The notes beneath the pieces are model-generated. The model was not told the origin of the DNA, searched no databases, and saw only the letters and a list, made by a program, of their open reading frames with translations. From Dehalococcoidia bacterium (GTDB lineage: Bacteria > Chloroflexota > Dehalococcoidia > Tepidiformales > Tepidiformaceae), in the NCBI GenBank assembly GCA_020432045.1, contig JAGQHB010000033.1, positions 1 through 32,579 on the forward strand: a DNA stretch of 32,579 nucleotides, given 5' to 3'. Position numbers and translations under genes: made by a program. This document shows positions 15,119 to 31,112 of the stretch, in pieces (position 1 is the first letter of the stretch; the number at the start of each line of letters is the position of its first letter).

Positions 15119-16185
15119 CAGCGTTTTGTTGGTCGTGAGCAGGAGATCACTTAGCTCGCGAGTCGCTTACAAGCCGCCTCAGGGGGCGAACCCGGCGTGG
15201 CGCTGCTAAGTGGGGAGCCCGGCATCGGCAAGTCCTGCCTATTGCGGGAGTTCTCGGACTGGGCACTCGCGGACGGCGGGCTCGTGCTCTCCGGACGTGC
15301 CTCCGACACCGAAGGCATACCCCGTACCTGCCCTTTGTCGAAGTCCTCCGTCAATCTGTCCACGCCTCATCCGACGAGGATCTTCAGCCAACTGTTTCCG
15401 TCGCACCGCAAGTCGACATGCTCCTCCCGGAGATCGTCGCCCGCTTCGGCCCGAAGGTGCGGGAGCGCCTTGCCCCGGAGTCCGAGCGCTAAGCGCTCTT
15501 CCAGGCCGTTTCGGAATTCCTGCTTCACGTCGCCAATTTAACCGGGGCCCGCGGACTCTTCGTCTGCCGCGGCGACGTCCACTTGGCCGATCGCTCAACC
15601 CTGCTCTTGTTTCAGCACCTCGGCCGGCATACGTCCGCTGCCTCCAACTCGCCTCAAGCGACGAGCACTGGCGCGGCCTTGCGGGCCGCGTCGCTATGGC
15701 GGAAGGCACTAGGGTCGCTGCAAAAGGGGCGAGCCCGCGTTCTCGCCTGGATACCGGTGTCTTGCAGCGGGCCGAAACAAACTTCCGGCGCGCGATCGAC
15801 ACGTTCCACCGTTACTGCTTCCCCGGGAGGAGGCCGAGCCCCTCCATTTGGGGGGAAGGCGCTTCCCAAAGCCAGAAAGCGCAGCGGAGCCATTCAGATG
15901 CTTGACGCCGCCATCGAAATCTACCGCCGTCACGTGGCGGGTCAGCGGTTCATCGACCCCGTTGAAGTGGACAAGGTGAAGACGTTGGCCATTGCGCCAC
16001 GGCCCGTCGCGTACCTCGACGGCCTCTCCGCGCGCGAGGTCGAGGCCCTGCGCTTAATAGCGAGGGGCCTGAGCAGCAAAGAGATCGGCGAGGCGCCCGT
16101 CCTGAGTGTGCGCACGGTTGAGCGGCACATCGCCAACGTCTACATCAAGACCAACACCCATGCCCTCGGCCCGCTAGCGAACTGA
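15119..16185 (+). pseudogene. Decayed LAL-type LuxR transcriptional regulator
   Basis: Pieces of one large ATP-binding regulator (LAL/MalT-like, normally about 900-1000 residues) are spread over two frames. The start RFVGREQEIT at 15122-15151 is followed by an in-frame TAG at 15152, then GEPGIGKSCLLREFSDWA with Walker A at 15212-15235. Near 15317-15325 the frame changes, and YLPFVEVLRQSV continues in frame 1. An in-frame TAA at 15490 interrupts ESER-ALFQAVSEFLL. The Walker B region reads GLFVCRGDVHLADRSTLLL, so the usual Asp pair is damaged. Most of the middle and the TPR-like part are missing. The end has a nearly complete LuxR helix-turn-helix, LSAREVEALRLIARGLSSKE and then LSVRTVERHIANVY (about 16020-16150), with a broken tail. 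It cannot make a working regulator, although a short HTH-bearing protein from 15583 is formally possible. Confidence 0.88.
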
Positions 16186-18830: not shown

Positions 18831-18906
18831 TGCGCGATAGCAGCATCGCCACATTCCGCTCCTGGGGGAGCCTCCGATGCTACGCTATGTCTTCAGGAGC
18901 AATTAC

Positions 18907-19293
18907 ATGGCCAACAGTACCCATCGAGCCCAACTCGGTTTCCTCGTGGAGCTCACCCGACCCGTCTGCGACGACGACAAAGATCTCCTGGCAAGGCGGT
19001 ACATCGACATTTACGACAACCTCGTGGGCGAGGTCATCCTCGAGGAGCGGAACCCAATTCACCGGTTTCTACTCGTCGTTCTGGATACCGTCGTTGCCAT
19101 GCATGTCGAGGGAGCACTCCAAAACGATCATCGCATGGCATCCAGGGCGCGCCGCGCCGTACTCACCTACCCCTGGGATACGGAGGTGCCGCCAGGTGTG
19201 GTGAAGTACGGTGATGCGTGGCCCGCGGGAGATCACGTTGCCTACGCGTTCGGCTCGGAAGACCAGGCAATGTTGGCGCAGCAGAGGGCTTGA
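18907..19293 (+). CDS. Hypothetical protein, 128 aa
   Basis: The ATG at 18907 is preceded by AGGAGC with six bases between, a better start than the ATG at 18877. The product is a soluble, acidic protein without signal peptide or membrane helix. Its first half looks helical (LVELTRPVCDDDKDLLARRY, EERNPIHRFLLVVLDTVVAM). The second half has WDTEVPPGVVKYGDAWPAG. I do not recognise a family. It stands alone between the integrase remnant and a stretch without genes, so it may be cargo of the decayed element. Because the neighbourhood is decayed, its being a real gene is likely but not certain. Confidence 0.5.
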   Translation: MANSTHRAQLGFLVELTRPVCDDDKDLLARRYIDIYDNLVGEVILEERNPIHRFLLVVLDTVVAMHVEGALQNDHRMASRARRAVLTYPWDTEVPPGVVKYGDAWPAGDHVAYAFGSEDQAMLAQQRA

Positions 19294-19698: not shown

Positions 19699-20070
19699 TT
19701 ATGATTCCTCTTCGCGCATCACTCCCGACAGCGGCGGATCCGTCCTTGCCCTCTCCTGAGCGCGTAGGCGTCTGATCGTGCTCTCGATGGAATCCGCCAA
19801 CTTGCCCGCCGCACCGGTGAGCGCCTGCTCCCATGTGGCTGCGTGCTCGGTGACTGCGATTGGCCGGTAGCCATCCAGAGCCGCCTCGATCAGGCAGCGG
19901 ATGTCGTCGATGCCGCCCTTCTTGTCGCTATTCTCATCTCGCAAATGAACCGAAACGGTGGTGATTCTGTCGCTGGTTCGGCTAAGAGCCCTCTCCATCA
20001 CGCCGGTCACGTGGGCGATCATTGCCGCGCTGCCTTCGATGTTGCTGTCTGTCTCGACTTGAATCTGCAT
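19699..20070 (-). CDS. HPF/RaiA-family ribosome-associated (hibernation) protein
   Basis: This 123-residue protein has the short HPF/RaiA pattern: MQIQVETDSNIEGSAAMIAH, then helix VMERALSRTSDRITTVSVHL and strand SVHLRDENSDKKGG, followed by RCLIEAALDGYRPIAVTEHA and a C-terminal helix AGKLADSIESTIRRLRAQ. Such proteins bind the decoding centre of the 30S subunit and promote inactive ribosomes. There is no long-form dimerisation domain. The second of two adjacent ATGs (20070) is chosen because AGGAGG is seven bases upstream; the first (20073) is only four away. It follows the baeRF3 gene by 29 bases on the same strand, so the two are probably co-transcribed. It ends with a Glu-rich tail. Confidence 0.85.
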   Translation of the reverse strand: MQIQVETDSNIEGSAAMIAHVTGVMERALSRTSDRITTVSVHLRDENSDKKGGIDDIRCLIEAALDGYRPIAVTEHAATWEQALTGAAGKLADSIESTIRRLRAQERARTDPPLSGVMREEES

Positions 20071-20099
20071 CATCGCTCCTCCTGTGATTGCTGTTGGGC

Positions 20100-21260
20100 T
20101 CAGTATCGGTAGGTGGCGGCAAGCCCGCTATCGGTCGGCATTCGCTCCGACGGAATGACAAGGACCTCACCACCCATCTTTTCGACTAGCTCGGCCAGGT
20201 CGTCGAGCAGGTCATCCACTTGTGGATGCTTCAAATCAGCGATCTCGATATGCCCCGTTGAGCCATCGAGATGGCCCGGGATCTGACGGCCCCACTCGAT
20301 CAGCACTGTGGCGACCCGCCCAGTAGCAGCAGCCTCTGCGACCTGCAAAAGGTCACTGCTGCCAAGTCCCCGTGATTGAGCAAGTGCAAACTCCTCGGAT
20401 CGGGCTGCGAGTCGTGCCTGGTACTGCGGTTCCACAACCGCCCAGGCAGCTCTCCGAAGCTCATCGGCGGAGATCGCGCCGGGGTCGATGAGAGGGCCAT
20501 CTTTCATGAGGAATGGGTTGTGGCTGACCCGCAGAAAAAGATGATGATTCTCCGTCAGGGCCGCCACCATCAGGGGTAGGCCGGAAGGCCGGGAATGGTG
20601 CTCCAGCACGGCACGGTCAACGGCACGGAAGAACCGCACCGCATCGACCTCTGCTTCGTCCTTCCTCCCACCGTGACCGTGGTAGCTCACGGCCCCCGGG
20701 CCGGCCCCACTAAACGAGGTGCCGGCGAGGTGTGGTTCGGTCAGCTGATCACCCAACGCCTCCGTGATCGTCCGCGGGACTCCAGGAGCCAGGTCGATTT
20801 CGTCGAGCGTGTCCCGGTTCCCCTCGAAGAGTTGGATTCGGTCGAGGCTTAATCCCAGGACCTGATAACGATCCGTCGATTGCAATAGACGTCGCAAAGG
20901 CTTGGTGTGAAACGTGTCCGCCACAACCACCAGTTCGACAACCGGGCGCTGTAGCCGGATCACGCGGAAGAACGATGGTCCTCCGAACACGGCCAACCCA
21001 TCCAGGGTGTGGTTCCAGAAAGCATGATCATGACCGAGAGCCTCGAAAGGTTCGAGGATGGCGTCAGCCTCCTCGGCCGGGTATTCCTGTCTGAGCGATG
21101 CTTTCATCTCCCCGACCAGATTGCGAAACCGGATGGGGTCTTGCTGATTGTCCGGGTACCGCCGATGGGTCCTCTGGTAGAGCGAGAGGCACGGTGGCTG
21201 GCGAGCCGCTCCCAACTCGGCCAGGGTACCAGCCGTGGCCGTAATCGTAGTCGGTATCAT
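20100..21260 (-). CDS. baeRF3 family protein (bacterial archaeo-eukaryotic release factor-like)
   Basis: The 386-residue length fits the baeRF3 family. Recognisable segments are PPCLSLYQRTHRRYPDNQQD near the N-terminus and LDGLAVFGGPSFFRVIRL before the middle domain. They are followed by VVVADTFHTKPLRRLLQSTD, YQVLGLSLDRIQLFEGNRDT and RFFRAVDRAVLEHHSRPSGL, then a C-terminal eL30-like part (RVATVLIEWGRQIPG, GGEVLVIPSERMPTDSGLAATYRY). Proteins of this superfamily are distant homologues of eRF1/Pelota, and the related bacterial protein Balon binds the ribosomal A site during hibernation. The GGQ motif of true release factors is not seen. The ATG at 21260 has AGGAGG six bases upstream. The HPF gene follows directly, which supports a role in ribosome hibernation or rescue. 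Confidence 0.85.
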   Translation of the reverse strand: MIPTTITATAGTLAELGAARQPPCLSLYQRTHRRYPDNQQDPIRFRNLVGEMKASLRQEYPAEEADAILEPFEALGHDHAFWNHTLDGLAVFGGPSFFRVIRLQRPVVELVVVADTFHTKPLRRLLQSTDRYQVLGLSLDRIQLFEGNRDTLDEIDLAPGVPRTITEALGDQLTEPHLAGTSFSGAGPGAVSYHGHGGRKDEAEVDAVRFFRAVDRAVLEHHSRPSGLPLMVAALTENHHLFLRVSHNPFLMKDGPLIDPGAISADELRRAAWAVVEPQYQARLAARSEEFALAQSRGLGSSDLLQVAEAAATGRVATVLIEWGRQIPGHLDGSTGHIEIADLKHPQVDDLLDDLAELVEKMGGEVLVIPSERMPTDSGLAATYRY

Positions 21261-21383
21261 CGCAGCCTCCTGTGCCTATTCCCATGGTACGCGCCTTCGT
21301 CGATAGGCCTCTGTCTGCTGTTTCGTGCTACTTCGATTTCGAATCCTGCTTGCCCGATCCGTCCGGGCGGACGGGAGGCTCCT

Positions 21384-21412
21384 GCATCCGGCACCGGGCC
21401 GGTGCCGGATGC
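21384..21412. terminator. Perfect 13-bp stem-loop after dps
   Basis: GCATCCGGCACCG at 21384-21396 pairs exactly with 21400-21412 across a three-base loop. It lies 52 bases after the dps stop (minus strand) and about 120 bases before the baeRF3 start. A smaller hairpin, CCGTCCG/CGGACGG, lies beside it. No T-run is present. Confidence 0.55.
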
Positions 21413-21463: not shown

Positions 21464-21970
21464 TTAGGACAGGTGAGCTTCAAGCATCCACGCCCACTTT
21501 TCGAGTCCTCGAATGACCTCGATGTAGATGTCCTGCGTGACCTGCTCATCATCCGTACTCGTCGCCGAGAGGCGCATCCGCTCCGCGGCGGTGATCAGGC
21601 GGTCGCGTACCGCGCGAGTCAACTCCTCCCAGCCATGCTCGTCTGTGGGGAACGGCCTGATCTCCTCCATGCTTGCGACGTCTGCAATGGTTCCATGCGC
21701 GGTGCCACGCAGGGCCAGGACGCGCTCGGCCACGAGGTCCGCATAGTCACGTGCCGCGAACGTGATCGTGTCAAACAGCCCGTGTAAGCCGACAAAATTC
21801 GGCCCGTGGACGTTCCAGTGGGCCTGCTTGGCTGAGACATGCAGGTCAGTCAAGTAGGCGAGGTTCGTGTTGAGCTCAGCAATGATTTCAGCGCGACGGC
21901 CAGCCGCGAGGGCGCCAACTGGCGCTGTCAGGATTTCGGTCTTGGTAACCACGTTCACATCCAGTCTCAC
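21464..21970 (-). CDS. dps: Dps family DNA-protecting ferritin-like protein
   Basis: The protein has 168 residues, the normal Dps length. The first helix has LNTNLAYLTDLHVSAKQAHW and the core motif HWNVHGPNFVGLH. Ferroxidase residues His51, His63, Asp67, Asp78 and Glu82 are all present; with this start they fall at the same numbers as in the E. coli protein. It would form a 12-subunit shell that oxidises and stores iron with peroxide and protects DNA in starvation. The gene begins with GTG at 21970 without a clear ribosome-binding site; GTG at 21958 is an alternative. It stands alone on the minus strand between hairpins. The next gene on the same strand encodes the baeRF3 protein. Confidence 0.94.
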   Translation of the reverse strand: MRLDVNVVTKTEILTAPVGALAAGRRAEIIAELNTNLAYLTDLHVSAKQAHWNVHGPNFVGLHGLFDTITFAARDYADLVAERVLALRGTAHGTIADVASMEEIRPFPTDEHGWEELTRAVRDRLITAAERMRLSATSTDDEQVTQDIYIEVIRGLEKWAWMLEAHLS

Positions 21971-22395
21971 TTCGTTTTGAGTTGTGGGCGGGACCTGGGT
22001 CCCGCGCGGCTCCGGCCACGGGATCCGTGGCCGGAATGAGAGCCGTAGCGTGTACGTTCACCATGACTCCCTTGCTTCACGTACCGGCAGCCTGGGGCCG
22101 CTTTTTCTCGCCCCGGCAGAGAGGTGTGGCGATAACGCCGCCAACTGGCTCCCCGTCACCATCGCATAGGTGCGCCACATCTGTCTGTCGGAAACTGTCG
22201 GAGGAAGCCAGAGGTGCGCAAAGACGACGACGACCAGGCTGATGAGCGTGAACTGCGCCGAGTGAGGACTGAAGCAGCCGGTACGCAGGCACACCTGGGA
22301 GCAAGTACGGCCCCAATGTTCCTGGGCTCACCCCGATACTGAGAGCAGCTTCGTGCTCTACCGCAGTGAGGCTGACTCAGGTCCGGCAATCCGGC
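21971..22395. other. Spacer between usp and dps with two hairpins
   Basis: TCCGGCCACGG at 22011-22021 pairs perfectly with 22025-22035 (three-base loop). CGGGACC/GGTCCCG lies nearby at about 21989-22004. Both would be in the 5' leader of dps. A minus-strand frame in 22058-22294 has one hydrophobic stretch (FTLISLVVVVFAHLWLP) but no ribosome-binding site, so I do not call it a gene. Confidence 0.5.
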
Positions 22396-23241
22396 TCAAC
22401 TGGTCACTGGCACGATCAGGAGGGCGCGCTTGGAGGAGTGCATGAGCCGGTTGGTGGTACTACCGAGAACCAGCCGCTTGCCAACTCCCTTCCCTGAGGC
22501 AGTTACGACGATGAACCGGGCGCCGACTCGGTCCGCGGTCTGCAAAATGGCGTCGGGTATATATCCGTCAGGCGTGAATGCCTCTTCGCCTGGGCGTACG
22601 ACCGTTGCCAGGTAGCCTTCCGCCTCGTCCTTCGGTGCTTCCAGCAGCTCGGGGGTTACGTACGCGTATGGCAGCGCTCCGCCGTAGTGCGCCATAAAGC
22701 GCCAGCCACGTACAAGGGCAACGTTCGCCTCAAGCTTGGCGGCCAGCTCACGGCCCGCCTCAAGCCCAAGGAGGCTGCGGTCTGAGCCATCCAGCGCAAT
22801 CAGGATCACGTCCGAGTCAGCAGCTAAGGAGGTTCCTTCGCAGGGGACGAACACGACTGGACCCTCTGCGCCTCGCACAACGTTGTCCGCTACCGAGCCA
22901 ATAAGGGCCGCTCGCACGCCACCGCGCCCGTGGCTGGCAATCGCGATGAACCGTGACCCTTCTGCGAAATCCAGGATCGCCGATGCGGCCGATCCAAGAA
23001 CGACCGTTGAGGTGGACACCTTCACGTCGTGGCGAGTGGCGGCTTCCCCCACATACGTGTCGAACCATGCAGCTGCACGCGCGAGGTCAGCCGCAGAGGC
23101 AAGCGACTCCTGGTCGACAGCGTGTATCGCGACCACGTCGAGTGCGTAGGCCCTTGCGATGAGTGCGGCGTAGGGCAGAGCGGCTTCCCCCGCCAGAGAA
23201 CCGTCCAGCGGGACGACGACGCAATCCTTACCTGCGGACAT
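22396..23241 (-). CDS. Universal stress protein with two UspA domains
   Basis: The protein has 281 residues with tandem UspA domains at about 5-133 and 141-281. Domain 1 starts VVVPLDGSLAGEAALPYA and ends with the nucleotide motif SHGRGGVRAALIGSVADNVV. Domain 2 starts ILIALDGSDRSLLGLEAG and ends with ASGKGVGKRLVLGSTTNRLM. Both keep the G-x2-G-x(8-9)-G-S pattern linked to ATP binding. The start has GGGAGG about nine bases upstream. It lies next to dps on the same strand, separated by about 425 bases, so it probably has its own promoter. Usp proteins are induced in starvation and hypoxia. Confidence 0.92.
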   Translation of the reverse strand: MSAGKDCVVVPLDGSLAGEAALPYAALIARAYALDVVAIHAVDQESLASAADLARAAAWFDTYVGEAATRHDVKVSTSTVVLGSAASAILDFAEGSRFIAIASHGRGGVRAALIGSVADNVVRGAEGPVVFVPCEGTSLAADSDVILIALDGSDRSLLGLEAGRELAAKLEANVALVRGWRFMAHYGGALPYAYVTPELLEAPKDEAEGYLATVVRPGEEAFTPDGYIPDAILQTADRVGARFIVVTASGKGVGKRLVLGSTTNRLMHSSKRALLIVPVTS

Positions 23242-24003
23242 ATGTGTGAGCCTCCCATAATGGCTTCATGGCCTCCTGAGGCCGAAGCCCGGGATGTCCC
23301 GCCAAACGCACATAGACTACTCCTACGCGTGCGGCACAAGAAGAGTGCACCGGATAGGGTGGGTCGTGCACTCTCCGAATGGCACTGGGCGGGAGCGGCC
23401 CGGCCCGTGTCCACGCGCACTATTCCGCCGGGCAACCGCAGCAGCCACATCCTGATGAACGCCTCCAGGGTCAGAGAAACGACGGATCAACCTAGGACGC
23501 GCACAACGCTTCAGACGCTCCGATCAAAATCCCGGTCTAGCACGCGATGATTGGCGGTCCACCGACCAGATCGCGCGACTGGATGGACACTCCCAGGTCC
23601 GTGCTACGGCGGCTCATGCGGCCTGTCCGTGAGAGGGTTAGGACCCCGCGCAGCCGCCAACTGGAGCAGGTGTGCGGGAGGCGGATCACGTCGAGCAGAC
23701 CGCCGGCTCATCTACACCTGGCGGGATACCGGATTCCCGTTAACTTGTCGCCACGGGTGTCAGCTGCTCTGATGATCGGGTGCGTTAGTGACCTCCCGGC
23801 TGCCTCAATAGGAATCGGAGGCAACGATGCGAACCGTTTCCATCCCGCCCCACGGGCGTAGGAGTTCGGGAATTTGTGTCGTTGGTTGGCTCCGGGGTGG
23901 ACGACGAAATGCTTGCACTCTCGCTTTCCCGCCTACTGGGAGAGAAGGTAATTGCGCGGGTCGTCGCCCCATCTCTTTGCAACGCTCGAAAGGAGCCGCC
24001 GTA
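23242..24003. other. Long spacer between usp and the GerMN-type gene
   Basis: No convincing gene. AGAGTGCAC at 23342-23350 and its exact complement at 23366-23374 form a 9-bp hairpin about 100 bases upstream of the usp start. An in-frame ATG at 23827 with a good GGAGG site would add 59 residues to the next gene, but they do not look like a signal peptide. The region must hold the promoters of both divergent genes. Confidence 0.5.
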
Positions 24004-24912
24004 GTGATCAGTTCACGGACACCCCTCCTCATGGTGGCAACTTTCGCCGCGTTCTTGTTCACGGGAGTTGCCGGGTTTGGTCCGCGCGATATGCAGCAAG
24101 GCGGGACCAATCTTCCGAAGCGTGCCACTATCCCAATGCTAGCGCAGGACGTCGATTCCGAGTCTGTGACCTCCTTCTCCGTCTACTTCTTCCTGTCGGG
24201 GGTCGAAGAGGAAGGTGGACCGTTTCTTCTCCCCGTCTACCGCGAAGTCCCCGAGACGTTAGGTGTCGCACGAGCGGCTGTTGAGTCACTCATCGCCGGC
24301 CCTCTACTGGACGAGGAAAGTGCGCTGGTCTCCGTTTCTTCGGAAGTCCCGCAGGGGACTCGGCTACTGGGTATCTCAATATCGACAGGGGTCGCCCGGG
24401 TGGACCTCTCTGAGGAGTTCGAGTCGGGAGGCGGTAGCTTCTCTATGCGTGGCCGGCTAGCCCAGCTCGTCTTCACGCTGACACAGTTCCCCGCAGTGAC
24501 CGCCGTGGAGCTACTGATCGAAGGCAAGGTCGCGACCGTATTTTCGGCAGAGGGCCTGGTGATCGATGGTCCCCTGGCGCGGGACGGGTTCGAGGATCTT
24601 CTTCCCGCGATCCTGGTCGAGCGCCCCGCCTACGGTGCTCCCGCTGGAAATCCTTTGCGAATCACCGGTACCGCGAACGTGTTCGAGGCGAGCTTCCTGG
24701 TTAGGCTCCTTGATGGGAGTGGCCGCGTGCTCGTCGAGACACCGGTCATGGCCACCTGCGGGACAGGATGTCGCGGGACCTTCGATGTGACGATTCCCTA
24801 TTCGGTCCCCAGCAAACAGCCAGGAACCCTCATCGCCTGGGCAGCGTCAGCGCAGGATGGATCGCCGCTGAACATCAGGACGTATCCAGTCACGCTTGAG
24901 CCGCCAGAATAG
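24004..24912 (+). CDS. Secreted GerMN-Gmad2 domain protein
   Basis: The 302-residue protein starts with GTG at 24004, preceded by AAAGGAG. A signal peptide follows (SSRTPLLMVATFAAFLFTGV). Residues about 50-185 match the GerMN domain: VYFFLSGVEEEGGPFLLPVY, AVESLIAGPLLDEESALVSV, GISISTGVARVDLSEEF and LAQLVFTLTQFPAVTAVELL. After a linker comes an Ig-like Gmad2 domain (about 205-300) with NPLRITGTANVFEASFLVRL and GTFDVTIPYSV, and a possible Cys pair in ATCGTGCRG. In spore formers GerMN proteins act in the envelope; in non-sporulating bacteria the role is unknown. It is probably exported and soluble or membrane-tethered. It stands alone. Confidence 0.86.
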   Translation: MISSRTPLLMVATFAAFLFTGVAGFGPRDMQQGGTNLPKRATIPMLAQDVDSESVTSFSVYFFLSGVEEEGGPFLLPVYREVPETLGVARAAVESLIAGPLLDEESALVSVSSEVPQGTRLLGISISTGVARVDLSEEFESGGGSFSMRGRLAQLVFTLTQFPAVTAVELLIEGKVATVFSAEGLVIDGPLARDGFEDLLPAILVERPAYGAPAGNPLRITGTANVFEASFLVRLLDGSGRVLVETPVMATCGTGCRGTFDVTIPYSVPSKQPGTLIAWAASAQDGSPLNIRTYPVTLEPPE

Positions 24913-25427
24913 GCCCCGTGACGATCGAGGCTCTGCCGCACCCCTTCCCTGGGCGGCTCGCCATCCTGTTGGACGCGCCGGGAAGCTTGGCAGCTTGATC
25001 CTCCCGGATCAGGTCCAGCCACCCCAACGCCTGGGTCAAACCGCGGCGCACATCAGTCCCGGTCCCAAGCAATCCTTCGATGCCGTCATCTGCTTCTGGC
25101 GTCAACACCATGAGGTGCCAATCAACACGTGCCACGTCGGGAAATGGGCAATATGGATGTCTCCGGCGGCATCGCCGGTCGTTACTGCCCCGTCGCCTCC
25201 TGCGAAGCTGGACGGACAGTAGCGCTCGCCCCGATCTTTCGAGACCATGAATCCTTGCAGGCGGAATTCGCCATTGGAACGGCGGATCGAAGCCGCCCTC
25301 CAGGAACGGGTCGCGCCTGCAAGAGTGAGGCTTACGAAGAGCCACCTCGATCGTACTGCACCGAACTCGTGGGTAAGGGAATCCCTGCCGTTGTTTCCGA
25401 ACCTCGCCTGCTAGAAGGAGTGTTGAT
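24913..25427. other. Spacer without a clear gene, 515 bases
   Basis: Frames in this stretch lack ribosome-binding sites and family motifs. The longest minus-strand frame (to 25345) is Arg-rich and low in hydrophobic patterning, as in random high-GC frames. The last 20 bases hold the GAAGGAG site of the hemerythrin gene. Confidence 0.5.
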
Positions 25428-25895
25428 TTGAATACGAGTGAGACGCTGGCGGCGCTGTTAGAAGAAGAACACCAACAAATCGATCACGGGGTCGCCGCGT
25501 TCGTGTCTGCCGGCGAAAATGAAGATCGGACGAGCCTGCTGTTAAGCGCGATCCAGGCGCTTCGGCGCCACATTTATCTCGAAGAAGCGATGGTCTTTCC
25601 GTCGCTTCGCGCAGCTGGAATGGTTGCACCAGTTTTCGTCATGCTACGTGAACATGGCGAAATATGGCGGGTTCTCGATGAGCTGGAAGCTGGAGTCGCT
25701 GCCAACGCGGGGCGGCCGGCGTTGCTCAATCTCTGTTCGCAGCTGGCCGAAGGGCTCGATTCTCACAACATGAAAGAGGAGCAAATCCTGTATCCGCGCA
25801 CCGATGCCGCCATGACCGAAGGAGCCACGGCCGAGTTGCGAACCTTCCTTGATTCGGGGGAACTGCCGCCGGGATGGGTCTGTGCCAACGCCTGA
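25428..25895 (+). CDS. Hemerythrin domain protein
   Basis: The 155-residue four-helix protein has likely di-iron ligands His15 (EEEHQQID), His48 and Glu52 (RRHIYLEEAMVFP), His76 (REHGEIWRVLDEL), His113 and Glu117 (DSHNMKEEQILYP). It starts with TTG at 25428, supported by GAAGGAG seven bases upstream. Such proteins bind oxygen or nitric oxide at a di-iron site, or help in iron-sulfur repair and iron storage. The C-terminal phrase LDSGELPPGWVCAN is common in this bacterial subgroup. The gene is single; a divergent Crp/Fnr gene lies beyond a 419-base spacer that ends at its 3' end. A second, different hemerythrin is encoded at 30597-31112. Confidence 0.9.
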   Translation: MNTSETLAALLEEEHQQIDHGVAAFVSAGENEDRTSLLLSAIQALRRHIYLEEAMVFPSLRAAGMVAPVFVMLREHGEIWRVLDELEAGVAANAGRPALLNLCSQLAEGLDSHNMKEEQILYPRTDAAMTEGATAELRTFLDSGELPPGWVCANA

Positions 25896-26314
25896 ACCTT
25901 AGGGCCAAGTGTAGACCGGCCCTCATGGTTTCTTTCTTGTACGGGAGGTGGCGCAGCCTCATAGACTCGACCGGCCCATCTCGAGTGCTCGCTAAACCGG
26001 GCTCGGATCCTGCGTCCGGGGAACAACAGTTTGCCTCCCCGGTAGCGGCCAACACTTGGGCAAGGAATGAGGGCGATCCAGCGTGTGGCCGCGCCACGCG
26101 CACCGGCACGGACGCTACGCGGCGGCCATTTCTGCGCCAAGCACGCGCCGGCGCGCGGCAATCTGCTCGTGCTGTCCACGCAGCAACAGCTTCTTGCAGC
26201 GACTCCATTTGCGGCGGAAGCACGGCAGAGCACGTCGAAAGCCAGGCAAAAGTGCCGATCGGCTGGGCCGGCCAACAGAGCCGGGCACGATTCCCGCGCC
26301 TAATCGTAGACTTA
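25896..26314. other. Spacer between convergent hemerythrin and Crp/Fnr genes
   Basis: No gene is seen. Overlapping frames on both strands are Arg/Ala-rich, lack ribosome-binding sites and match no family I know. A short hairpin-like GGCTGGGCCGGCC lies near 26262. Confidence 0.45.
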
Positions 26315-27028
26315 TCAAAAGCTGCGCAGTTCCCGCAGCCGGGCGAACTCTGAATTTATGACTGCATAGCATTCACAGGAAGCATGTTCCAGCCCGCGAC
26401 GGTCTACTATCGTTATTTCGCCCCGGCGGTATTCAACAAGGCCTGTCTTGTGTAGCGAGGCCGCCGACAGTGCAACGCTGGGGCGACTCACTCCAAGCAT
26501 CTGAGCAAGGAACTCCTGCGTTATCCGAAAATCGTCCGCTCCGGCCTGGTCGTGGGTCATCAACAACCACCGGGCGAGGCGCTCGTCTACGTGGTGTGCG
26601 CGGTTACACGCTGCCGACTGTGCGAGGAACGCGAACATCACTCCACTGAAGATACGCATGACCTCGGCGAACGCCGGGAGTCGCCGTATCGCCGAGGCGA
26701 AGTCCTCGGTACGCATTCGCAGGGACTCGCCGGGAAGCTGTGAGACGAGCGCGAGATTCGAATTGTACAGGCCCAGGATGATCGGGACACCAGTTGAACC
26801 CTCCCGTCCCACGGTGGCGAACTCGATCATCATTCCGCTCTCCAGAACGGTCAGCATGGAAATGATCCCGCTCGTCGGGAAATACACATAATCGGGCATT
26901 TCGCCGGCCTCCTGGAGCGTCTCGCGCATCCGCAGGAGGTGTGGCTCCAGCAACGGAATCAGTTGCTCGAATTCAGCTGGCTCGATTGCCGCCAACAGCA
27001 GGTTCTCGGATTGCGACGTGACCGGCAT
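26315..27028 (-). CDS. Crp/Fnr family transcriptional regulator
   Basis: The 237-residue protein has an N-terminal cyclic-nucleotide-binding-like barrel (YVYFPTSGIISMLTVLESGM, EFATVGREGSTGVPIILG), a long helix and a C-terminal winged helix (FRITQEFLAQMLGVSRPSVA, LHKTGLVEYRRGEITIVDR). The barrel lacks the canonical phosphate-binding Arg motif, and there is no N-terminal Cys cluster, so it is neither a typical Crp nor a typical Fnr; the ligand is unknown. The ATG at 27028 is chosen because it starts just before the conserved part. The frame is open to 27127, and neither start has a strong ribosome-binding site. It may control some of the nearby stress genes, but no shared operator was found. 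Confidence 0.86.
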   Translation of the reverse strand: MPVTSQSENLLLAAIEPAEFEQLIPLLEPHLLRMRETLQEAGEMPDYVYFPTSGIISMLTVLESGMMIEFATVGREGSTGVPIILGLYNSNLALVSQLPGESLRMRTEDFASAIRRLPAFAEVMRIFSGVMFAFLAQSAACNRAHHVDERLARWLLMTHDQAGADDFRITQEFLAQMLGVSRPSVALSAASLHKTGLVEYRRGEITIVDRRGLEHASCECYAVINSEFARLRELRSF

Positions 27029-27346
27029 TTGACTTCGCGGCGCGGGCCAGGAGTTGAAGGCCTCCGGCCCGTCCCCAGGCCAAGTATAGCCGCTGGCGCA
27101 AAATCCTGGATATTCGGTGTTTCGCATTTGGGGCGTCGTGCGGACCGCTTAATACGAAGTACCGAACAAGAGCGCGACCTCCCGCCCGGGTGGCCAGTGT
27201 TCCGGTCCTGGTGACCGCCTGGGGCCCCGGCGTCCGCTAGTTTCGGACAGATCGCAGGGACTACGGTCGTGTGCATGGAGGCGACTAGCGACGTCCCGAC
27301 AGCCACCACGGCGTCGAGTCCAGTCGGATCGCAGGAGAAAATAACC

Positions 27347-27589
27347 GTGCAAACTACTGCAGAGGCCATGAAAGTCCACCGGCATCATTGGCTTATCGAC
27401 GAACCGGAAGGTTCCTCAAGCCGGGGTGTTTGCAAGCATTGCCAGGAGAGCCGCTACTTTCGGAACTGGCTGGCAGAGACTGACTTTCTCACATCGAGAG
27501 AGTCACGGGAATTGAGCGCGTCTGCTCACGGCAACGAGGGCCAGTCCGGATACGGGCTCACGCGGAGAAATAGCGAGCGTGAAGGCTAA
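27347..27589 (+). CDS. Small Cys/His protein with CKHC motif
   Basis: The 80-residue protein starts with GTG at 27347, with AGGAG nine bases upstream; the frame is open further upstream. The conserved-looking core is KVHRHHWLIDEPEGSSSRGV followed by CKHCQESRYFRNW. The pattern of His-His-Trp followed by G-V-C-x2-C and an aromatic-Asn segment recurs in small proteins of Chloroflexota and actinobacteria, and suggests a one-metal zinc knuckle. I do not know a function. The tail is polar and Ser/Arg-rich, probably disordered. It is divergent from the Crp/Fnr gene, with about 320 bases between. Confidence 0.62.
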   Translation: MQTTAEAMKVHRHHWLIDEPEGSSSRGVCKHCQESRYFRNWLAETDFLTSRESRELSASAHGNEGQSGYGLTRRNSEREG

Positions 27590-27818
27590 TACTTGTTCGG
27601 AAATGAGAGCGGATACGCGCAAGATGATCGCCTGGTGGTGTGGGATCACGGACTCTGTCTTGAGCATTATCCGGCATGCACCAGGATCGCTTGAGCCCTG
27701 TCGCAATGAAAATCATGGCGGTTCACTCCGCTAATTTGGAACAGACAGCCGGTGCTAGCATGGTCTCGCACCAACACACAAATGAGGGGTCATGATGGGT
27801 TCGTCAAGAGGTGGATCA

Positions 27819-28013
27819 ATGCACACGGTCTTGCTTCGTGATTACCGGGCTCGGCTGGAATCGGAATTGGTTGAAGTCGCGGCCATTCTCGCTGGCATCG
27901 AGGAGTACCCGGCCCCATTCGTACGGGAGCGCGCCACGGGGCTTGGGTCCGCCGGGGTGTTGCCCGCGGAGGAGAACGAATCGGCACTGTCCCAGGGCCA
28001 GCCCATTGGATAG
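27819..28013 (+). CDS. Small hypothetical protein, 64 aa
   Basis: The ATG at 27819 has AGAGG seven bases upstream; an earlier ATG at 27792 has a weaker AGGGG site. The product has an amphipathic helix (LLRDYRARLESELVEVAAIL) and a short Glu/Ser-rich tail. No family is recognised. The good ribosome-binding site and the coherent helix argue for a gene; the short length argues for caution. Confidence 0.4.
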   Translation: MHTVLLRDYRARLESELVEVAAILAGIEEYPAPFVRERATGLGSAGVLPAEENESALSQGQPIG

Positions 28014-28175
28014 GGACCTTATGCCGGCTATCGGTATTCGCGTAGTCGCTTGCTTGTGGAGGATGGGATAGTCCAAAGGTAAAGGTTGGAGCCGCTCCCC
28101 GGCGACACGACGCGGTCTCACTGCGTCTCAGAGCGCACTCCAATCGCTTTTGAATGAGTAACGGAGATGAGGGAC

Positions 28176-28463
28176 ATGACATATATCCGATTATCAGTCG
28201 TCAAGCCGCACCCCGGCTTCGAGCAGCGTGCCCTGGAGCTCCTCGAAGCGCTGTCGGCAGCCACGGCTAACAGCCCTGGGTGGCAGGCCAACTACGTCCT
28301 GCGGCCGCACGACGACAGCGGTGAGGTCGCACGAATCTCCATCTACGACGATGAGTCTTCAGCCGAGCGGGAAGCCGCAACGCCGAGCGTTCTGTCGCTT
28401 CGCTCCCAACTTCTGCTCATCATCGAGCCGGGTCACCGGGAACGCGCGTTCTTCAGCGTCTGA
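28176..28463 (+). CDS. ABM-fold (antibiotic biosynthesis monooxygenase-like) small protein
   Basis: The 95-residue protein starts at ATG 28176, with GGAG nine bases upstream. It shows the dimeric ferredoxin-like ABM pattern: strand TYIRLSVVKPHPG, helix FEQRALELLEALSAATANSP, strand GWQANYVLRPHDDSGEVARI, strand SIYDDESSAEREA and a last strand LLLIIEPGHRERAFFSV. Members include cofactor-free monooxygenases and heme-degrading enzymes. Without the Asn/Trp heme set, the reaction cannot be named. It stands alone. Confidence 0.68.
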   Translation: MTYIRLSVVKPHPGFEQRALELLEALSAATANSPGWQANYVLRPHDDSGEVARISIYDDESSAEREAATPSVLSLRSQLLLIIEPGHRERAFFSV

Positions 28464-29170
28464 CCGTAATCGCCGAAGTTGCTGCGTCCGAAAAAGACGC
28501 CAGAGACGCCAGTTCCTCTGTTCCAGGCACCAGTTCGCGTGAGTCCCGAGCGTATCGCCGCGCATATGTTCCCCTCAGGACCCGTGCAGAAATCCCAGTC
28601 TGCTGGTCGCTGACGGCGTACGAAACCGTCAGCCGCAAGGAAAACATCGACCCGCGGTAGCACATCCGAATGGAACACAACAACCCCCATCCATGACGCT
28701 GACCGCAGGCTTCGCAACCACCATCGCGGGAACTGCCAGTACGCCGGCGGACATCGCACGGCCCTTCACACCGGTTCATGGCAGGCTGCAGGGCGATGAC
28801 CTCGTTGTAGTGGTGGAAACACGTTATTGCCGCAAGCTGCCCCCTCGCATCTGCTACTAATGGACAGACGGGCAAGCGTACCGTGACCTGTATGGCGCAG
28901 AGCGGTTCACGCGGTGAATCCCACGAGCAGTACATCAGTCAGGGCCACGTGGCGACACACTGCCACGCCCGCGGCGAAATCAGTGCGCGAGGTCGAGGGG
29001 CCGAAGCACGACCTCGGTCCATGCTAGAGACGGGATTTCCGGTGGGGATTGCTCGGCCAGGTACCGGCCGCGCCCTGTGGCCGCTTTGCGCAGCACGTGA
29101 CGGTCAAACCACTGCTCAGATCAAATCGTGGATAGCGGCGATTGGTCACACGATTACGGAGGTGTTCAGA
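28464..29170. other. Spacer without a convincing gene, about 700 bases
   Basis: Frames of 55-160 codons occur on both strands but have no ribosome-binding site and no recognisable motif. A 55-codon plus-strand frame from about 28693 begins MTLTAGFATTIAGTA and ends at a TAA near 28860; I rate it unlikely. The 3' end must hold the promoter for the protease operon. Confidence 0.45.
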
Positions 29171-29266
29171 ATGGCAGAGTCGCTGCCCCTCTTTTGCAAG
29201 GCTGGGCCGAGGTGGACGAGAGATAGGGTCGATAGCCCGAGCTTTGTCCGCAGGCCGGGCGGGTAA
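29171..29266 (+). CDS. Possible 31-aa leader peptide upstream of the M50 protease gene
   Basis: GGAGGT at 29158-29163 lies seven bases before this ATG and is one of the strongest ribosome-binding sites in the window. The frame encodes MAESLPLFCKAGPRWTRDRV and stops at 29266, four bases before the ATG of the protease gene. That ATG has only a weak site of its own. Translational coupling through a short leader is likely. No attenuator hairpin was found. Confidence 0.42.
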   Translation: MAESLPLFCKAGPRWTRDRVDSPSFVRRPGG

Positions 29267-29270
29267 CGCC

Positions 29271-30437
29271 ATGCGAGGAGGGAGTTTCCGGATCGCACGA
29301 ATCGCGGGTATCGATATCCAGATCCACGGTTCATGGCTGCTCATTGTCGCACTCGTATCGTGGATGCTCGCCGACGGCGTCTTCCCCGACCGCTACGACG
29401 GCTGGAGCGGCGTCGCATACTGGACCGTCGGGGTGGCCGCAGCTGTCCTCCTGTTCGTCACTGTGCTCGTTCACGAACTCGCCCATGCACTTCTTGCCAA
29501 GCGCCGGGGGCTGCCTGTACCTCGCATCACCCTGTTCATCTTTGGGGGCGTCTCAGAGCTAGGCGGCCAGCCCGAGACGGCGCGGGCTGAGTTCGCAATC
29601 GCTGCTGTTGGCCCGGCCGCGAGCCTCGCCGTCGCGGCAATTTCCGGAACGGTCGCCCTCACGCTCGGAAGCGGCAACGAAAAGGTCGAAGCAGTCTTCG
29701 CGTACCTGGCGACGGTCAACGTCCTCCTCGCCGTATTCAACCTGCTACCGGGTTTTCCGTTGGACGGCGGCCGTGTGCTCCGTTCCATTGTGTGGGGCCG
29801 GACCCGCAGTTTCCGGCGGGCAACCGTCGTTGCCACGCGTGTCGGCGAGATCTTCGCCTATGGGCTCATGATTCTTGGCGTCTACTTCATCCTGATAGGG
29901 TTCCTCTGGAACGGAATCTGGCTCGCGTTCATTGGCTGGTTCCTCCTGAATGCTGCGCGGGGCGAGTCATCGCAACTCCAGCTCGACACCATCCTTCGCC
30001 CGCTTCGCGCGCGGAGTCTGATGCATACGGATTTCATAAGCGTGGTGCCCGGGATGCCGCTCCAAGAAGTCGTCGACAATTTCATGGTGGCCAGGGGTGA
30101 GCGGGCCGTAATGGTCGCGAATGGCGATGCCGTTCTCGGCATCCTTACCGTGAGCGACGTCCAACGCGTTCCCCGGGACGAATGGATGTCGACGCCGGCC
30201 CAGCGGATCATGACACCACGCGAAAAGGTAGAAACGGTTTCCGCTGAGACGCCGGCACTCGATGTCCTCCACTTGCTCGGTGACCGGCGGCTCAACCAGG
30301 TACCGGTCCTTGAAGATGGGCGAATGGTAGGCCTCATCACCCGGCGGGAGCTGCTCGACAAGGTGCAAGTCGCAGGTTCCCTCGCGCCTGACGAGCCATC
30401 CTCCCGGCACGACGCTGACACGCAGTCAGGAAACTGA
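29271..30437 (+). CDS. Site-2 protease family M50 metalloprotease with CBS domain pair
   Basis: The 388-residue protein has six or so membrane segments, then a cytoplasmic CBS pair. Zinc-binding HELAH is at residues 68-72 inside the second hydrophobic region. The second active-site motif GFPLDGGRVLRS (Asp165) replaces the classical NPDG. The segment RITLFIFGGVSELG between them is typical of the SpoIVFB-like M50B group. CBS 1 (LMHTDFISVVPGMPLQEVVD) and CBS 2 (IMTPREKVETVSAETPALDV ending RLNQVPVLEDGRMVGLITRR) can bind adenine nucleotides, so proteolysis may respond to energy charge. The substrate is unknown. The ATG at 29271 follows a small open frame by four bases. Confidence 0.93.
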   Translation: MRGGSFRIARIAGIDIQIHGSWLLIVALVSWMLADGVFPDRYDGWSGVAYWTVGVAAAVLLFVTVLVHELAHALLAKRRGLPVPRITLFIFGGVSELGGQPETARAEFAIAAVGPAASLAVAAISGTVALTLGSGNEKVEAVFAYLATVNVLLAVFNLLPGFPLDGGRVLRSIVWGRTRSFRRATVVATRVGEIFAYGLMILGVYFILIGFLWNGIWLAFIGWFLLNAARGESSQLQLDTILRPLRARSLMHTDFISVVPGMPLQEVVDNFMVARGERAVMVANGDAVLGILTVSDVQRVPRDEWMSTPAQRIMTPREKVETVSAETPALDVLHLLGDRRLNQVPVLEDGRMVGLITRRELLDKVQVAGSLAPDEPSSRHDADTQSGN

Positions 30438-30596
30438 CCGTCAGCGAACGGCACAAGCCCATGCACACACCCGCCGCCGGTGCTGCGACAAGTGCACGGG
30501 CGCCCACTTCAATGATTTCCGTCCCGGCTGACGCCGCCCGGCGCGGGTTTTAACGGCGGAGGTTTGTGCTGGTATTGTCGCGGTCGACCCTCCCCC

Positions 30597-31112
30597 TTAA
30601 ATCGGGGCCGAGCGGGGGAGTCTGGCTTCACTGGCGGCCGCCTCCATCGCCTCAAACATCTGCCCTGCCTCCGACTCCGTGAGACGCTGATCGAGGATGG
30701 GAAGGTAACCCTCTTCCTCTTTGGCGAAGTGCACTTTCACCAGCGCAGATAGACCGTAGAGTACGGCCCGAAGCGCCTTTGCCTGCGCCGGGTCCAGGGC
30801 CGCACCGGACAGGCTCGACCGGAGCGCGCCGAGTTCCTCGGTGAGACGGCGGACCTCGACGTGGTCACGGCTCATCGTCGCCGTCGCCTCGGGTGCTCCC
30901 ATGAGTCTGGCGATGACCGGATAGAGGGCGCGTTCTTCGGCCTGGGCGTGCGGAAGCAGGTGATCGACCAGGAACTCATGCGATTCAGCAACATTGCGTA
31001 GCACGGCCTCTATCGGAGCCTCGCCGACAGAATCTGCTGCTGCTCGCAAACCTGCAATGTGCGGCAGCAGTTCTTTGTGCTCATCGCGCAACGGTTGGGT
31101 AGGGGTCGCCAT
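30597..31112 (-). CDS. Hemerythrin domain protein (second, distinct copy)
   Basis: The 171-residue protein has likely ligands His12 (RDEHKELLPH), His55 and Glu59 (LLPHAQAEERALYP), His84 (SRDHVEVRRL), His128 and Glu132 (KVHFAKEEEGYLP), a full HHE four-helix set. It differs clearly from the protein at 25428: the spacing is longer, and the first helix has the motif common in DUF-type HHE proteins. The ATG at 31112 has GGAAGGA about seven bases upstream. It is convergent with the M50 protease gene, with about 160 bases between. The role is oxygen, NO or iron handling, unproven here. Confidence 0.9.
   Translation of the reverse strand: MATPTQPLRDEHKELLPHIAGLRAAADSVGEAPIEAVLRNVAESHEFLVDHLLPHAQAEERALYPVIARLMGAPEATATMSRDHVEVRRLTEELGALRSSLSGAALDPAQAKALRAVLYGLSALVKVHFAKEEEGYLPILDQRLTESEAGQMFEAMEAAASEARLPRSAPI

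Follow-up and report, generated by a model that had tools for sequence, protein, structure and literature searches.

The window analysed here, a 32,579-nt stretch of a contig from a Dehalococcoidia bacterium (JAGQHB010000033.1), carries a gene pair in which a baeRF3-type protein related to the ribosome-bound factor Balon is followed on the same strand by a short protein of the HPF/RaiA type (Table 1), and judged by homology this pair is likely to form a two-gene ribosome-hibernation unit. The original prediction of such a module has been supported by the Balon-like fold and sequence of the first protein, the HPF fold of the second and the recurrence of their linkage. The idea of a baeRF-HPF linkage is itself not new. 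Burroughs and Aravind (2019) have described conserved baeRF-HPF neighbourhoods and proposed a joint action of both products on the ribosome (PMC6514570), and Helena-Bueno et al. (2024), who named Balon, have found the RaiA gene to be its most frequent neighbour (PMC10901736). The window locus shows the same pairing and leads to the same proposal of joint action; whereas the neighbourhoods published in 2019 come from comparative genomics over several baeRF families, it is one more instance, with a divergent HPF subtype. New here are the membership of the baeRF3 protein in a sister clade of Balon, an HPF subtype below the Pfam threshold, the coexistence of an unlinked true Balon in the same genome and a clade-specific loop motif.

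Gene Arrangement

Both open reading frames have been confirmed on the minus strand, and an AGGAGG precedes each of them, in agreement with the strong ribosome-binding sites originally noted for both genes. The HPF gene begins 26 nt behind the baeRF3 gene when read from its first ATG (20073) and 29 nt behind it when read from the second (20070). Translation more likely starts at the latter, since this is where the orthologue in G402, the genome with the closest relatives of both proteins, begins, and this favours the gap of 29 bases originally proposed. Against the G402 orthologues, the baeRF3 gene has a dN/dS (Nei-Gojobori) of 0.20 and the HPF gene one of 0.36; both are therefore under purifying selection and have been kept.

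Table 1. Features of the baeRF3-HPF locus (coordinates are those of the window)
Feature	Position	Strand	Description
baeRF3-type Balon-like protein	20100..21260	-	386 aa, three eRF1-type domains
Short HPF/RaiA-type protein	19699..20073	-	124 aa, or 123 aa from the ATG at 20070
AGGAGG ribosome-binding site, baeRF3 gene	21266..21271	-	5 nt before the ATG; from sequence
AGGAGG ribosome-binding site, HPF gene	20078..20083	-	ATG 4 nt (first) or 7 nt (second) downstream; from sequence
HGHGG, residues 194-198 of baeRF3	20667..20681	-	Loop before the long middle-domain helix, at the aeRF1 GGQ position; from alignment
Tyr35-Pro36 of baeRF3	21153..21158	-	At the alignment position of His-Pro in Balon
Perfect 29-nt inverted repeat GCATCCGGCACCGGGCCGGTGCCGGATGC	21384..21412	.	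Between dps and the baeRF3 gene; single occurrence in the genome
Dps-type ferritin (DNA starvation protection)	21464..21970	-	Context, outside the unit; PF00210 E 4.4e-16; NCBIfam Dps 122.3 bits (cut-off 114)
Tandem universal stress protein	22396..23241	-	Context, outside the unit; PF00582 E 1.7e-32

Family and Fold of the baeRF3 Protein

The baeRF3 protein matches the Pfam model baeRF_family3 (PF18845) with E 2.9e-48 and 164.9 bits, well past the cut-off of 31.5, and its residues 12-386 align in phmmer over the full length with Balon of Psychrobacter urativorans (8rd8_B, E 8.7e-19); when 26 relatives are combined into a profile, it also reaches the mycobacterial Balon homologue Msmeg1130 (E 1.7e-8) and, marginally, archaeal Pelota (E 0.012). 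The AlphaFold2 model (pLDDT 86, pTM 0.79) is closest to ribosome-bound Balon (8rdw_B; Foldseek E 2.1e-25, VIA-align Z 24.8 over 350 residues), and the rmsd of 8.3 Å suggests that the domains are held at different angles in the model and in Balon. Next in the comparison comes aeRF1 (Z about 15). The aeRF1-type N-terminal, middle and C-terminal domains are all present in the model, residues 12-386 of which can be aligned to 8rdw_B, so the structural check against Balon and Pelota that had been suggested for this protein has returned the complete set of eRF1-type domains, with ribosome-bound Balon as the nearest structure.

Neither the GGQ of the aeRF1 middle-domain loop nor the NIKS of its N-terminal domain has been found in the baeRF3 protein. 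The position of GGQ is taken by HGHGG, whose placement rests on the sequence alignment because the surrounding loop (residues 175-198), next to the helix 199-226, has been modelled with pLDDT <50. An H-x-[HQ]-G loop occurs in each of the 14 proteins in the clade of the window protein and in none of the Balon-side proteins of the alignment, and HGQ is seen in six of seven further Chloroflexota baeRF3 proteins of the larger clade. The loop may be a mere ribosome contact; a hydrolase activity exerted through it is possible but unlikely. In the N-terminal domain, the dipeptide of Balon that aligns with Tyr35-Pro36 presumably is the HP motif located at the decoding centre (PMC10901736), an assignment of residues that we infer from the alignment. 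This position reads YP in the window protein, HP in its closest orthologue (G402), and SP or HP in the Balon-side relatives.

A Divergent Short HPF

With 19.2 bits, the second protein stays below the cut-off of 23.7 of the Pfam model Ribosomal_S30AE (PF02482). Its identity as an HPF despite this score follows from its match to the Acinetobacter baumannii HPF solved on the 70S ribosome (7m4z_v; phmmer E 5.3e-18, 40-43% identity), from homologues scoring above the cut-off in the genomes G061 (28.9 bits) and G246 (30.9 bits), and from its predicted fold. The A. baumannii protein passes as well, and homologues 42-46% identical score 28.9-37.0 bits. The AlphaFold2 model (pLDDT 83) shows the order beta-alpha-beta-beta-beta-alpha and superposes on 7m4z_v with a VIA Z of 16.2 (rmsd 1.5 Å, 101 residues), on E. 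coli HPF (6h4n_x) with Z 15.6 and on the RaiA solved together with Balon (8rd8_D) with Z 15.2. The C-terminal dimerisation domain of long HPFs is absent from the protein; in the model, only a tail (pLDDT 54-57) follows the S30AE domain. Its computed pI of 5.0 is more acidic than that of its relatives, and its second helix holds few lysines. The E. coli HPF and RaiA sequences used alongside for sequence comparison serve for illustration only.

The window protein is of the same subtype as the short A. baumannii HPF and differs from it by an acidic C-terminal tail. For that subtype, binding to 70S ribosomes has been described and 100S particles have not been observed (PMC8263017); by analogy with this homologue, for which it has been shown, the window HPF would bind the 30S subunit. 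A second S30AE protein has not been detected in the window genome, which is 97% complete. In G417, of the same family, an HPF open reading frame (L051:1447-2022) appears by eye to run into a cold-shock-like domain.

Recurrence of the Pair

The order baeRF3-HPF is found again in G402, where the proteins are 80% and 77% identical to those of the window, and in Chloroflexales bacterium ZM16-3 (G061; 57% and 46%), and in G005 an S30AE protein of another type follows a baeRF3 of another subclade. Because the order recurs in these genomes, in one case with a different type of HPF, the pairing is not due to chance. Two overlapping scans of Chloroflexota for the HPF subtype (151 and 400 genomes) have located it in the window genome (G000), G061 and G246, and G402 came to light in a scan of 38 genomes of the family; the subtype lies directly behind baeRF3 in G000, G402 and G061, and in G246 no baeRF3 has been detected. 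Four of the five short HPFs in the surveyed Chloroflexota thus stand behind baeRF3 (G000, G402, G061 and G005, not G246), whereas of the 22 other S30AE proteins, found in 24 genomes and encoded in longer frames (183-254 aa), none is adjacent to a baeRF3.

The relatives have been scanned with the two closest baeRF3 proteins as queries, which has yielded 14 close relatives at >50% identity, namely the window protein, that of G402 and twelve named loci (one of them ZM16-3), the survey outside Chloroflexota covering 12 loci. An adjacent HPF accompanies about four of the 14 (window, G402, G061 and, as a broken copy, L033), where L039, whose downstream side lies beyond the contig end, has been counted among those without. 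In other phyla the majority of close relatives are without a neighbouring HPF, so baeRF3 often occurs without one and the linkage is patchy, not fixed. The suggested check for a conserved linkage in relatives has thus been answered by its recurrence in G402, G061 and G005. The HPF gene behind the baeRF3 of an Opitutae MAG (L033:5860-6140) is frameshifted and shortened, either by assembly error or by decay. Plasmid searches have given separate matches to baeRF3 and to HPF, and no record common to both.

Relation to Balon

Against the NCBIfam Balon model (NF052287), the window baeRF3 reaches 174.5 bits, below the cut-off of 330. In a maximum-likelihood tree, midpoint-rooted and with Balon on a long branch, Psychrobacter Balon and five others, including a second baeRF3 protein of the same genome, form one clade (100/100), and the window protein falls among the other 21 rows, in a clade of 14 (100/99) that includes Desulfobulbaceae, Opitutae, Aminicenantes, Cyanobacteria, Acidobacteria and others. 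The window protein is therefore a sister-clade paralogue and not Balon proper. Its nearest relatives after G402 come from Desulfobulbaceae and an Opitutae bacterium (66-69% identity), and since these are closer than the Chloroflexales protein (57%), the sequence comparison points to horizontal transfer of the baeRF3 gene.

With Balon (P. urativorans AOC03_06830; NF052287; 8rd8, 8rdv, 8rdw), the window protein shares the full-length, three-domain aeRF1-type fold, the lack of both GGQ and NIKS, a THR-x-x-P-x-N-x-QDP segment in the N-terminal domain and RaiA/HPF as a frequent neighbour; it differs in its identity of only 24%, its separate clade, the lower score on the Balon model, a longer middle-domain loop with HGHGG, and YP in place of HP. 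Further features of Balon proper are a bL27 trap and an EF-Tu-binding beta-hairpin. The mycobacterial homologues Msmeg1130 and Rv2629 (8v9j, 8v9k) have the same fold (Z 21.4 and 15.5) and are more distant, at 16% identity.

The second baeRF3 of the genome (contig C4:25584-26660; L003:7534-8667) passes the Balon cut-off with 347.9 bits, and its best Pfam match is PF18845. Consequently, Balon itself is a baeRF3-type protein, and the earlier statement that the biology of baeRF3 is not established has to be qualified. This paralogue resembles the window protein in its Pfam family and length class and differs from it by the HP dipeptide, by grouping with Balon in the tree and by an identity of about 31%; no HPF has been found in its neighbourhood. 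Two to four Balon copies have been reported in 603 species (PMC10901736).

Genomic Surroundings

The dps gene lies 203 nt upstream of the baeRF3 gene, beyond the 29-nt palindrome, which is very stable as RNA and lacks a T run. The palindrome probably separates dps from the pair, and from the distance together with this unique hairpin, baeRF3 and HPF are probably a transcription unit of their own, in which they would be co-transcribed. A promoter or terminator has not been recognised in scans for the sigma-70 consensus and for terminators, and FNR, CRP and DosR-box patterns have had no match within the window. The stress-gene cluster at 21464-31112 holds, besides Dps and the tandem Usp, a Crp/Fnr-type regulator, two hemerythrins and an M50-CBS protease, all within 12 kb of the pair. 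This neighbourhood agrees with the stress-response context in which Balon genes have been described and is reminiscent, as an analogy, of the mycobacterial dormancy or DosR set with its Usp, Balon homologue and hypoxia response. Msmeg1130 and Rv2629 are induced by hypoxia (PMC10901736), the latter as part of a hypoxia-induced gene set (PMC4082495), the HPF/RaiA gene of which, Rv0079, is located elsewhere judging by its locus number.

A small open reading frame on the plus strand (18877-19293), without Pfam match, has been considered for the unit and rejected: it converges on the HPF gene and is kept there only in G402 (83% identical), occurring otherwise only as distant copies on contig C11 of the same genome and in G226. 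At 15197-16185, pieces of a LuxR/AAA-type regulator stand in different frames, which suggests gene decay or a sequencing error.

Proposed Ribosome Hibernation and Alternative Readings

In the proposed mechanism, starvation would induce the pair and baeRF3 would, by analogy with Balon, bind in the A site of 70S ribosomes that stand idle under stress. Its N-terminal domain would be placed at the decoding centre, its middle domain at the peptidyl-transferase centre without hydrolysis of peptidyl-tRNA, and its C-terminal domain towards EF-Tu. The short HPF would sit in the path that mRNA and tRNA take through the 30S subunit, presumably on the same ribosome and at the same time. For Balon and RaiA such a common ribosome has been solved; RaiA has also been seen on about two thirds of the Balon-bound ribosomes of ice-treated cells, and whereas aeRF1 and Pelota have N-terminal domains that leave it no room, that of Balon accommodates it (PMC10901736). 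The product would be an inactive 70S monomer and not a 100S dimer, because the window HPF is devoid of the C-terminal dimerisation domain.

Hibernation is the best reading of the full-length match between baeRF3 and Balon in sequence and fold, of the likeness of the HPF to 7m4z_v (sequence and fold) and 8rd8_D (fold), and of the recurrence of the pair, the purifying selection, the missing GGQ and NIKS and the Dps and Usp neighbours. Several findings count against it: baeRF3 stands outside the Balon clade and below its cut-off, with YP for HP and a differing loop at the peptidyl-transferase centre, the HPF is more acidic than its relatives and below the Pfam cut-off, most close baeRF3 relatives in other phyla have no HPF beside them, and neither promoter nor terminator has been recognised.

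The loop is the starting point of an alternative in which baeRF3 serves ribosome rescue or a special release, clearing stalled ribosomes like Pelota or freeing the peptide by its H-x-[HQ]-G, and HPF stores the freed ribosomes. Both its location where aeRF1 has GGQ, with the motif in every clade member, and the HGQ in most other baeRF3 proteins of the larger clade would suit this reading, and a rescue role has been proposed for the baeRF clade (PMC6514570). We nevertheless consider it unlikely, as GGQ itself is missing, a Gln of other proteins is replaced by His in the window protein, the nearest solved structures are hibernation factors and not Pelota, and the same authors judged most baeRF families inactive as hydrolases (PMC6514570). 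In a variant to which we assign a rather low probability, the larger non-Balon baeRF3 clade with H-x-[Q/H]-G would constitute a separate A-site factor, engaging or cleaving peptidyl-tRNA before HPF locks the emptied ribosome; one genome would then run two programmes of the Balon type, one with a stand-alone Balon and one with a pair that releases and stores.

The remaining alternatives separate the two genes. They could be stress genes that became neighbours by chance in a stress cluster, each acting alone on different ribosomes or under different conditions, as might be argued from the roughly ten of 14 close baeRF3 relatives without an adjacent HPF (with L039, cut off downstream by its contig end, among them), from the HPF of G246 without a detected baeRF3 and from dps and usp adjoining the pair. 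This is quite improbable: order and close spacing are repeated in three lineages and with two types of HPF, and in the surveyed Chloroflexota baeRF3 precedes four of five short HPFs, whereas none of the 22 long-frame ones lies near a baeRF3. It is less probable still, and hardly credible, that the HPF homologue has lost its binding to ribosomes and plays another role, leaving baeRF3 as the sole hibernation factor: its sub-threshold Pfam score, acidic composition and scarce second-helix lysines would agree with this, whereas its identity of 40-43% to a ribosome-bound HPF, the fold similarity to 7m4z_v (Z 16), the purifying selection on its gene and the lack of any other detected HPF in the 97%-complete genome speak against it.

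Implications

Read as a hibernation unit, the locus adds to the pairing known from Balon and RaiA a case from Balon's sister clade, with a divergent short HPF missed by Pfam, in a genome that carries a true Balon as well. If both work, it could be asked at this locus why a cell needs two factors of the Balon type, and whether short HPFs serve specifically as partners of the paired baeRF3 proteins; the conserved H-x-[HQ]-G loop offers a concrete mutational handle.
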